Program-made: the position numbers and the translations under genes
DNA from: Pseudomonadota bacterium
GTDB taxonomy: Bacteria > Pseudomonadota > Gammaproteobacteria > Competibacterales > Competibacteraceae
Reading direction: 5' to 3'
Assembly (NCBI GenBank): GCA_030917925.1
Contig: JAUPTV010000124.1
Coordinates: forward strand, 1-62,594
DNA length: 62,594 nucleotides
Shown here: positions 5,720-60,889 of the stretch, piece by piece
Layout of the letters: every line of letters begins with the position of its first letter
Numbering within the stretch: position 1 is the stretch's first letter
Notes under the pieces: generated by a model
Seen by the model: the letters and a program-made list of their open reading frames with translations, nothing else
What the model was told of the DNA's origin: nothing
Databases searched by the model: none

Positions 5720-7111
5720 TTATTCAACTAATAGTTTTACCATCGCCAACGGCAAGCGAATCACGAACACCGCCCCCTGCGGGATATTATCGCGGACCGT
5801 TACATCGCCGCCGTGCAAGCGGGCGATGGTCCGCACGATAGATAACCCCAAACCGCTGCCCGGACCGGCATCCCGTCGATAGAAGCGCTCAAAAATCACC
5901 TCTTTTTCCGCATCCGGCACTCCGGGACCGTAATCAGCGACCGTAATTTCCACATCGCCTTCCATCAACTGCAAACGAACTTCCGGCGGCTGAAGGACCG
6001 TGCTATAGCGCAGGGCGTTATCGATCAAATTATGCAACGCAATCGTCAACAAATCGGCGTCCATCTCCATCACCCGACCCTGATCCAGCCCACGCCAGAC
6101 TATCGGCATCGCGTAACGCTCCACCACTTGACTCACCACCGCATGAATATCGGCTTCCTGTAGCATCAAGCCAAAACGCAATTCGCGCAATCGGTCCTGA
6201 GCAATCAGCGCATTGGCCAGATGAATCAGGCGCTGAGTGGCTTGACGTATATTATCCAGCCGCAGCGTGACCGCCGGTGGAATAGTGTCCGCCAGGAATT
6301 TCAGCGAATCCAGCGAAGCGCGAATCATCGCCGCCGGGGTGCGGAATTCGTGCGAAGCCAGCGACAGCAATTGGCGCTGCTCCGCCTCAGCCTGCGCCAC
6401 ATCCGCCAGCGCCTCGCGCAAAACCTGATCATCATTTTGCTTGGCGAGCAGCAGAAAGCCATAGCCATTGATGATGATAATCAGGTAGCCGACCACAAAC
6501 AGCGTAATGTGGAATGCCTGATAGGTCGGGTGGGTCAGATCGTCCAGACCCATCAACGACATCATGCGGCCCAGAAACAGCGTTCCAGCCACCCCGTTGG
6601 TCACGCCCATCAATCGCACCAAAAGTCCGTGCTGGCGGTTGGTCAACAAGAGCAGCGCCATCGCTGCAAAAAACCCGCTATTCACCAGCGAGAAGTACAT
6701 CAGATCGACGCGGCGCGTCACCTCCATGCCATGCAGGACCAGTTGCGCCACGACCGCCATTCCCGTCAGCAGCACCAGCGGCGTTCGCCAGTTGCGCCGC
6801 TGGTCCAGCAGGCTGGCGTAGGCCCCATATTCCAGCGCCCAGGCGACCACCAGCAACAGATGCGACAGGGTCAGCGAGAGCCATGGCGGAATAACGGGCC
6901 GCAGCCAGATCAGCAGGAAAGCGACGCTGCTGATCAACCGCGCCCAGCGCCAGATCGACAGGGGTTCATTGGCCATTTTGGCTGACCGGGTATACACCGT
7001 AGTCAATCCGGCAAACGCCAGATTGCCGAGACCCATGGCTAACGATAATGTAGGAATATCAATCAAAATCCGCCCCCCATGCCGATGAACCCCCTTCGCG
7101 CCATTGCTCAA
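5720..7111 (-). CDS. Membrane sensor histidine kinase
   Basis: Two-component kinase of up to 463 residues. About seven hydrophobic segments lie in residues 25-225, a multi-pass input domain without a large periplasmic loop. HisKA follows with the phosphoacceptor H254 in LASHEFRTPAAM, then an HATPase with an N-box NLIDNALRYS, DYGPGVPD and GLGLSIVRTIARLHGG. The longest frame starts at TTG 7111; a TTG at 7066 (LIDIPTLSLAMG) preceded by GGGGGGCGG, or ATG 7036, is also possible and the 7066 start fits related sensors better. It is divergent from the response regulator at 7190, which is its probable partner. The signal is unknown; the membrane-embedded sensor suggests a lipid-soluble or membrane stimulus. 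Confidence 0.85.
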   Translation of the reverse strand: MSNGAKGVHRHGGRILIDIPTLSLAMGLGNLAFAGLTTVYTRSAKMANEPLSIWRWARLISSVAFLLIWLRPVIPPWLSLTLSHLLLVVAWALEYGAYASLLDQRRNWRTPLVLLTGMAVVAQLVLHGMEVTRRVDLMYFSLVNSGFFAAMALLLLTNRQHGLLVRLMGVTNGVAGTLFLGRMMSLMGLDDLTHPTYQAFHITLFVVGYLIIIINGYGFLLLAKQNDDQVLREALADVAQAEAEQRQLLSLASHEFRTPAAMIRASLDSLKFLADTIPPAVTLRLDNIRQATQRLIHLANALIAQDRLRELRFGLMLQEADIHAVVSQVVERYAMPIVWRGLDQGRVMEMDADLLTIALHNLIDNALRYSTVLQPPEVRLQLMEGDVEITVADYGPGVPDAEKEVIFERFYRRDAGPGSGLGLSIVRTIARLHGGDVTVRDNIPQGAVFVIRLPLAMVKLLVE

Positions 7112-58676: not shown

Positions 58677-59852
58677 TTAGAAGAGCTTGAGGATGGAGCC
58701 AACAATGGCGGCGGCAGAGGCCAGGATGGCGACAATGCCCACGACCAAAGCCAGTGTGGCGCGTGAATCGCCTGATCCGCCGTTCTGCGCAAGATTAGCC
58801 GCCGCCTGCTGAATAGAACGTTCTGCGGTTTCGCGGGCGATGGTTTCGATCACCGGCTGAAGGCCAGAGCGCACCATCTGCACCACTTGTTGCTTGAATT
58901 CCGGAGAACCGGTCGCCATAACCAGCATTTCCTGACTGTGGTGCTTGACCTGGCCCTCAATTTCCTTGAGCAACTCATCCCGGTTGATTTCCAGACCTCG
59001 CGCCACATTGCGTTTTGAAACGCCTTCGCTGACTTCACGGGCGGCCTGTTCGGCAACCGCCCGAGCGCTTTCCTGGGCGGTGGTGCGTGCGGTGCGCTCG
59101 GCAGTGCCCCGGGCGATTTCAGTCGCGACCTGCTTGGCGGCTTCCTGAGCGGCGCGCACCGCGGCATGAGCGGCCCGGCGGCCCAGATCCTCGGCGACGT
59201 TGCGCGCAGCTTGTGTCGCGGCTTCCTGCGCCAAGCTGGGTACCATTTCCTGGATGATGTCGCGGGCCACTTTCTCCGCGGACGCCCAGGCGGCACGTTC
59301 CGCAATCTGTTCAACATCGGCCACCGACAGCCCGACAGTAGCAGGCGCGACGGCCAAGGTTGGCGGTGGCGCTGCTGCCGATGGCGTAGTGACAATCGGT
59401 ATGGAGACCGGCGAGGTTTTTTCAACCACGCGCGGCGTCGGAATGACGGATGGTGCTGATAACTCTTCCATGGAAATCGCCGCAGTGCCCGAACTGACGG
59501 TGCGCAGGACACCGTCCAGTTCATCCGGCGTATAGGGCTTGGAGAGGAAACTGACCGCGCCGCTTTCCCGTGCGTCCCGCTTATCCTCATCCGTGGCGTT
59601 CGCGGAACACATGATGATGGGAGGGCTTTGCGGATGCTGGCTGGTAATCGTGCGATTCGTCTCAAAGCCGTCCATGCCGGGCATCATCACATCCATGAAA
59701 ATAATATCGGGCTTTTTACCCTCCAGATATTTGACACAGTCCTCGCCCGACCCCACCCAGTCGACTTCGATACCGCGCTCGATCAGCAGTTTGCGTAAGG
59801 TCATGTGGGCGACTCTGGAGTCGTCCACTACCAGCGCCTTTTTGATATCCAT
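58677..59852 (-). CDS. Receiver-domain protein with alanine-rich helix and C-terminal membrane anchor
   Basis: A 391-residue protein of unusual build. Residues 1-122 are a complete receiver: D10/D11, phosphoacceptor D54 in IFMDVMMPGMDG, S83 and K105. A Pro/Thr-rich linker (about 125-170) follows. Then about 175 residues are alanine-rich and amphipathic (AERAAWASAEKVARDI, AAHAAVRAAQEAAKQVATEI), like LEA or apolipoprotein helices. The last 25 residues are one hydrophobic helix (TLALVVGIVAILASAAAIV) with a short basic end, a tail anchor. No DNA-binding or enzyme output is seen. It may relay a phosphosignal to the membrane or to chemosensory-type partners. It follows secF by 95 bases on the same strand. 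Confidence 0.75.
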   Translation of the reverse strand: MDIKKALVVDDSRVAHMTLRKLLIERGIEVDWVGSGEDCVKYLEGKKPDIIFMDVMMPGMDGFETNRTITSQHPQSPPIIMCSANATDEDKRDARESGAVSFLSKPYTPDELDGVLRTVSSGTAAISMEELSAPSVIPTPRVVEKTSPVSIPIVTTPSAAAPPPTLAVAPATVGLSVADVEQIAERAAWASAEKVARDIIQEMVPSLAQEAATQAARNVAEDLGRRAAHAAVRAAQEAAKQVATEIARGTAERTARTTAQESARAVAEQAAREVSEGVSKRNVARGLEINRDELLKEIEGQVKHHSQEMLVMATGSPEFKQQVVQMVRSGLQPVIETIARETAERSIQQAAANLAQNGGSGDSRATLALVVGIVAILASAAAIVGSILKLF

Positions 59853-59947: not shown

Positions 59948-60889
59948 TCAGGGCCGTTCATCCGCAGTTTCCTTGGCCCGGGGCAGCAAGTCTTCACGGC
60001 TGATGCCTAGATACAGAGCCGTGGCGCTGGCGATGTAGATCGACGAATAGGTGCCAACGACAATGCCCACGATCATGGCGATGGAAAAGCCGTGCATCAC
60101 CGCGCCGCCGAAGAAGTACAACACAATCACCGACAATAGCGTGACCAGGCTGGTCATCGTGGTACGAGCCAGCGTCTCATTGATCGACAGGTTCATGATG
60201 TCTTGAATCGAACCCTTGCGCCGCTTGCGGAAGTTTTCACGAATGCGGTCCAGCACCACGACCGTATCATTGACCGAGTAGCCAATGACCGCCAGCACCG
60301 CCGCCAGCACCGTCAGGTCGAATTCGAGTCCGAATAGTGAGAACCAGCCAACCGTGAAAATCACATCATGAACCGTGGCGGCAATGGTGCCGAGCGCCAG
60401 CCGCCATTCAAAGCGGAACATGACATAGATCAGAATACCGGCCAACGCGCCGAGCATCGCCAATCCCCCCTGTTCCACCAGTTCCTGACCGACCTGCGGC
60501 CCAACAAATTCGGCTCGCGCCAGAGTTACCCCGGCACCGCCCTCTGCGCCTTGCAGGGCGTGCAGAACCTCATTGCTCAGGGTCGCGGCGTTAGCTTGCT
60601 CACCGCGTGGCGGAACGCGAATCAGCACATCGCGGGAGGTGCCGAAGTGCTGGGTCTGCGCGTCGCCGAAACCCGCCTTGGCTAGGGTAGCCCGAACCTG
60701 CCCCAAATCAGCAGGTTGTGAATATTGCGCCTCGATCACCGTGCCGCCGGTGAAATCCAGGCCCAGGTTCATGCCTCGGATCAGCAGCGAGCCAAGGGCA
60801 ATCAGCACCACGGTGATAGACCAGCCAATCGCCAGCTTGCCCCAGCGCAGAAAATCGATATTCGTGTTGTAGAGATCCAATCGCCACAT
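59948..60889 (-). CDS. secF: Protein translocase subunit SecF
   Basis: Membrane partner of SecD that uses the proton gradient to help complete protein export. The 313-residue protein has LRGMNLGLDFTGGTVIEAQY (in part, the family start GLDFTGGT), and the C-terminal membrane block with VIGYSVNDTVVVLDRIREN, RTMTSLVTLLSV-like ARTTMTSLVTLLS and SSIYIASATALYLG. Starts 24 bases after secD ends, as usual. Confidence 0.95.
   Translation of the reverse strand: MWRLDLYNTNIDFLRWGKLAIGWSITVVLIALGSLLIRGMNLGLDFTGGTVIEAQYSQPADLGQVRATLAKAGFGDAQTQHFGTSRDVLIRVPPRGEQANAATLSNEVLHALQGAEGGAGVTLARAEFVGPQVGQELVEQGGLAMLGALAGILIYVMFRFEWRLALGTIAATVHDVIFTVGWFSLFGLEFDLTVLAAVLAVIGYSVNDTVVVLDRIRENFRKRRKGSIQDIMNLSINETLARTTMTSLVTLLSVIVLYFFGGAVMHGFSIAMIVGIVVGTYSSIYIASATALYLGISREDLLPRAKETADERP

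Follow-up and report, generated by a model that had tools for sequence, protein, structure and literature searches.

The minus-strand gene described here encodes an orphan response regulator whose output appears to be structural: a phospho-accepting receiver is followed by a flexible linker and a long rod with a four-residue small/hydrophobic repeat, which a last helix would fix in the cytoplasmic membrane. From this anatomy, the constraint on the rod and the absence of any other output, we propose with moderate confidence that the protein is a phosphorylation-controlled membrane scaffold. The gene lies in a 62,594-nucleotide stretch of Competibacteraceae DNA (GCA_030917925.1, contig JAUPTV010000124.1), the whole of which is called the window here. 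Its features are collected in Table 1.

Table 1. Features of the receiver gene and its conserved neighbour, in window coordinates
Feature	Coordinates	Strand	Basis
Whole gene, 391 aa, ATG start, predicted membrane-anchored orphan response regulator	58677..59852	-	ORF and translation; 22 aligned orthologues
Receiver domain, residues 1-120; active site D10, D11, D54, S83, K105	59493..59852	-	Pfam PF00072
Variable disordered linker, residues 121-175	59328..59492	-	pLDDT, conservation, dN
N part of the helical rod (residues 176-290), a tetrad repeat with Ala at every fourth residue, A227-A271; one-residue slip at 221-228 (EDLGRR)	58983..59327	-	
C part of the rod (residues 291-356), continuing the four-residue register with lower conservation	58785..58982	-	
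Predicted C-terminal transmembrane helix with a short tail (residues 368-391; hydrophobic stretch of the helix at about 367-389)	58680..58751	-	Hydropathy, model, orthologues
secF, directly upstream, conserved neighbour	59948..60889	-	Same strand in all measured group-A loci

The open reading frame (58677-59852) was read on the minus strand, and the plus-strand reading was interrupted by stops. The Pfam scan detected a single domain in the protein, Response_reg (PF00072; residues 7-113, E 4.6e-28), with the acidic pair, acceptor Asp and Lys of a response regulator receiver; at E values up to 1 no second family appeared except a weak overlapping receiver model. D54 is the phospho-acceptor, and D10, D11, D54 and K105 were invariant in 15 divergent members of the membrane-anchored group described below. 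The intact phosphoreceiver (D54) claimed in an earlier note on this DNA was thus borne out by the Pfam match and the invariant active-site residues. The receiver had an AlphaFold pLDDT of about 80-90. The linker that the same note had placed after it was recovered as a Pro/Ala-rich segment (residues 121-175) with pLDDT below 50 at 124-174. Residues 170-360, for which a known output domain had been held to speak against the earlier interpretation, were empty in Pfam, and the scan of ten divergent members detected no output domain above the cut-off. Judged by these scans, the protein is a response regulator without a known DNA-binding, enzymatic or RNA-binding output domain, and homologues with the same domain order were found.

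The AlphaFold monomer was based on an alignment of three sequences, two of them relatives (mean pLDDT 69.6), and its rod packing is not reliable. It placed helices at residues 177-247, 252-277, 280-289, 291-313, 317-356 and 365-390. Foldseek with the full model gave receivers only among the best 50 matches listed. Hydropathy and the model agreed on a hydrophobic helix at about residues 367-389 of 391 with none earlier, the arrangement of a C-tail-anchored protein, and this helix is predicted from its hydropathy to insert in the cytoplasmic membrane. The predicted helix was kept in 22 of 22 aligned orthologues, one of which ends at a contig edge inside it. The C-terminal hydrophobic tail of the earlier note has therefore held, as the full-length orthologues retain it and tail-less homologues were what would have counted against it.

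The rod contains 35 Ala in 170 residues. Its hydropathy spectrum (residues 181-345) showed a peak at about 90.7 degrees per residue, corresponding to a period of 3.97 residues, with an amplitude of about 220, compared with 46 at a period of 15/4, 59 at 11/3 (98.2 degrees) and 34 at 7/2 (102.9 degrees). This hydrophobic peak was about 2.5 times the mean shuffle maximum and was reached by none of the 500 shuffles. The register i mod 4 = 3 was mostly small or hydrophobic across 41 tetrads (mean hydropathy 1.82), and register 1 was strongly polar. Ala recurred at four-residue spacing from 227 through 271, an unbroken run of 12, against a maximum of 8 in 20,000 shuffles. The phase of the stripe was constant near 140 degrees at residues 181-213 and near -135 degrees at 229-253, with a one-residue slip between them; the slip segment E221-D222-L223-G224-R225-R226 was invariant in group A, the members adjoining secF. 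A heptad or hendecad coiled coil (3.5 or 3.67) was excluded by the low amplitude at both periods, as against about 220 at about 90.5 degrees. Of the "Ala-rich amphipathic repeats" described before, the Ala-rich repeats stood up to the shuffle tests, but the ordinary amphipathic helix had to be given up for a tetrad, not heptad, pattern.

As the period is 3.97 residues and not that of a heptad, the helix must carry its hydrophobic stripe as a winding band. With a turn of about 99-100 degrees per residue in a straight alpha helix, a stripe at 90.7 degrees per residue drifts by about 9 degrees at each residue, circling the helix in about 40 residues (about 60 angstroms). Two helices packed along this stripe with the 7-8 angstrom spacing of Ala-Ala contacts would be expected to cross with right-handed geometry, at an angle of about 40-45 degrees, as GxxxG/AxxxA pairs do.

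The same period was found well beyond the window. In a set of 838 gene models taken from the loci compared, these rods ranked first, with peaks at about 91 degrees; the coiled coils of chemoreceptor-like proteins peaked at 102-103 degrees, and the only other strong gene models near 91 degrees were opposite-strand shadow ORFs in three group-A loci. Divergent members kept the period (L028, 3.93; L030, 4.02; L036, 3.98; L043, 3.96; L052, 4.00), the rods of L157, L158, L161, L168, L175 and L179-L181 peaked at 89-92 degrees, and all 40 of the 40 strongly periodic tail-anchored rods found peaked at 89-94 degrees, although some of them (L158, L175 and L161) differ greatly in sequence. The four-residue rule is not universal, as an Oleispira member had a period of 3.65 (not significant). 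The rod profile gave two chance-level matches only against the PDB (E 1.8 and 5.9), and over 369 gammaproteobacterial genomes it matched only the window's own family, indicating that what the distant rods have in common is the period rather than the sequence. Matches of the L028 rod (152-331 aa, E 4e-5) and the L158 rod (163-320 aa, E 1e-4) to DUF445 were below the Pfam cut-off and the identity was rejected; DUF445, which was absent from the window's own genome, perhaps shares a similar helical period. The VPxLAxE motif was also considered as possibly PopZ-like; the Pfam scan of the window protein showed the receiver only.

The orthologue search covered 59 related genomes; within the window's own family most members proved to carry a full-length orthologue (68-82% identity), and 22 orthologues were aligned. 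Invariant columns amounted to 67 of 120 in the receiver, 74 of 115 in the rod at residues 176-290 and 2 of 55 in the linker. The Nei-Gojobori medians, taken for the orthologues against the window gene, were dN 0.104 and dS 1.48 for the receiver, dN 0.087 and dS 1.12 (dN/dS about 0.08) for rod residues 176-290, and dN 0.185 and dS 1.16 for rod residues 291-345; the median dN was 0.565 in the linker and 0.283 in the tail. By these substitution measures purifying selection on the rod is strong, and the part at 176-290 is as constrained as the receiver, suggesting that the rod is more than a plain spacer. Two orthologues were irregular, and both cases may be assembly errors: a frame change in the linker splits the gene in genome G027 (L026/L048), and unrelated sequence starts near residue 323 in genome G032 (L024).

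The secF gene was found upstream on the same strand in 20 of 20 measured group-A loci, with a gap of 84-641 bp (95 bp in the window), and the long gaps often held a small opposite-strand gene. In L008, L009, L011, L012, L015, L019, L020 and L022 the gap contained a conserved opposite-strand ORF, about 105 residues long (MKRTLLALIAPPAAV...), which has cysteines as well as hydrophobic stretches and is absent from the 95-bp gap of the window. Divergent members, read by eye, adjoined unrelated genes and not secF. Group B had a TM-coiled-coil protein as its neighbour, joined in some genomes by srfB. The group-B paralogue in the window's own genome (L031, 1-7147 of G000:C252) lies directly upstream of the TM-coiled-coil protein, SrfB (PF07520) and a protein combining TerD with Virul_Fac (PF10139), and in L044 the stretch also holds TagF_N and PP2C genes. 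The nearby kinase that the earlier note had proposed to look for did not materialise: the sole HATPase_c match of the window (5744-6061) is about 52 kb away, among 66 in the host genome. The loci read by eye look like orphans.

In a tree of 163 receivers, rooted by midpoint only, the membrane-anchored receivers formed one group (support 90/87) with 114 others outside. Receivers were flagged in this tree when a C-terminal or mid-protein membrane helix followed closely, and the sole flagged receiver outside the group was that of a cyanobacterial cyclase-like ORF (L091). The receiver profile of the group, searched in 369 gammaproteobacterial genomes, gave scores of at least 119 bits in about 48 genomes, mostly for frames of 260-530 residues; below 119 bits the frames were mostly CheY-like. 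The window's own genome had exactly two receivers at about 176 bits, the window gene and the group-B paralogue on contig C252, and the next scored 95. After removal of copies there were 59 tail-anchored gene models and 27 with a mid-protein helix, most of the latter with about 200-220 residues after it.

These mid-protein-helix models represent a sister class in which a receiver and a TM helix are followed by a conserved C-terminal domain, about 200-220 residues long (L042, L049, L055-L059, L134-L137, L139-L142 and others), in which two conserved cysteines were seen in three aligned sequences. The domain after the TM helix had no Pfam match. Foldseek with its model (pLDDT 65) gave probabilities of 0.99-1.0 and E values of 6e-4 to about 1e-2 for the best rows; by VIA the top match was 4rha (OmpA CTD; Z 9.8, rmsd 2.7, 122 aligned), and the rows listed were OmpA/MotB/Pal-like nearly throughout. 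The domain is thus predicted to fold like the OmpA/MotB/Pal wall-binding domains. Of the two residues that bind peptidoglycan in such domains, the Asp of the HTD motif was not seen in the members read by eye, and the Arg was present in some only.

In the proposed scaffold, the rods would pair or bundle tightly and right-handed through the Ala-tetrad stripe, a mode of association already put forward for AxxxA/GxxxG helices. An unlinked kinase, by phosphorylating D54, would alter receiver dimerisation or docking, and the altered receiver state would switch the assembly or partner binding of the membrane-bound scaffold; no DNA-binding or enzymatic output would be expected. The four-residue period could instead serve packing against a partner all round rather than self-assembly.

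The earlier note had offered a scaffold, a polar organiser and a chemosensory adaptor, among which the scaffold is the most economical. A chemosensory or motility role, in which the protein would act as an adaptor or polar organiser recruited to a membrane site in a phosphorylation-dependent manner and CheV- or FrzS-like in effect, appears unlikely; an anchored receiver would be a natural adaptor and the host carries FliH and dozens of receivers, but no che, pil or fli gene was recognised beside the members read, the neighbours being secF for group A and the TM-coiled-coil protein, sometimes with srfB, for group B. The intact receiver, the many kinase-type ATPase matches in the genome and the lack of a cognate kinase next door would also suit a phosphate sink or relay intermediate, in which the receiver is held near membrane kinases and the rod sets the distance. 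We consider this quite unlikely, since a spacer need not match the conservation of the receiver as the rod does at 176-290, and the four-residue period is retained in divergent relatives.

The constant position of secF upstream raised the possibility that the protein regulates a membrane process whose genes lie close by, which for group A would be secDF. The variable gap, holding the opposite-strand gene in many genomes, indicates that co-transcription with secF is not general, and the divergent members are located elsewhere, making this explanation improbable. Least probable is a perilipin- or phasin-like arrangement, with the rod as a long amphipathic helix flat on the membrane surface: an Ala-rich helix does adjoin the membrane anchor, but the drift of the stripe takes it through about four turns across the rod, leaving no single flat hydrophobic face.

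The family of membrane-anchored switches probably organises something at the membrane rather than controlling genes. A wider and more tentative idea, possible but less likely than not, is a family-wide output module of two-component systems, in which membrane-anchored small-residue-tetrad rods would form a right-handed, tight helical assembly of unsolved type switched by receiver phosphorylation, and the sister class would link its receiver across the membrane to the cell wall. An anchored group without known output in about one in eight of the sampled gammaproteobacterial genomes suggests that two-component signalling has a structural branch.

Response regulators are known chiefly for regulating genes or acting as enzymes. 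The window protein resembles those of the CheY, NtrC and OmpR types in its receiver fold and active-site residues, and differs in carrying a helical rod and a C-terminal membrane helix in place of a DNA-binding, enzymatic or RNA-binding output; in the literature searched, response regulators of this kind, whether termed membrane-anchored, membrane-bound or tail-anchored, were not found described. The MotB/OmpA/Pal wall anchors are matched by the sister class in the predicted OmpA-like fold of the domain after the TM helix. The sister class differs from them in the receiver on the cytoplasmic side; the usual HTD Asp was not seen in the members read, and the window protein is without an OmpA-like domain.

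SPFH/Band_7 proteins with Ala-rich helices form membrane-bound helical assemblies, and such an assembly is the common point with the scaffold proposed here. The window protein had no PF01145 match and does not belong to that family, and the SPFH ORFs of the window's genome showed no comparable hydropathy peak at 90 degrees.

The nearest described case to the tetrad rod is the GxxxG repeat of FliH, a component of the export apparatus, whose structure was unknown in 2009; its authors judged it very rare and found that none of the solved helices had GxxxG repeats in a contiguous run of more than three (PMC2674601). The tetrad rods would accordingly offer a test case for a rare helix packing, a continuous AxxxA. 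The FliH genes of relatives and class members showed a small-residue peak at 88.5-92 degrees over short segments. Membership of FliH/YscL was rejected, as the window protein has no PF02108 match and its repeats are Ala tetrads. Both carry small residues at four-residue intervals along a long helix, but the window rod uses Ala in place of Gly and extends over about 160 residues, compared with roughly 60 in FliH/YscL.
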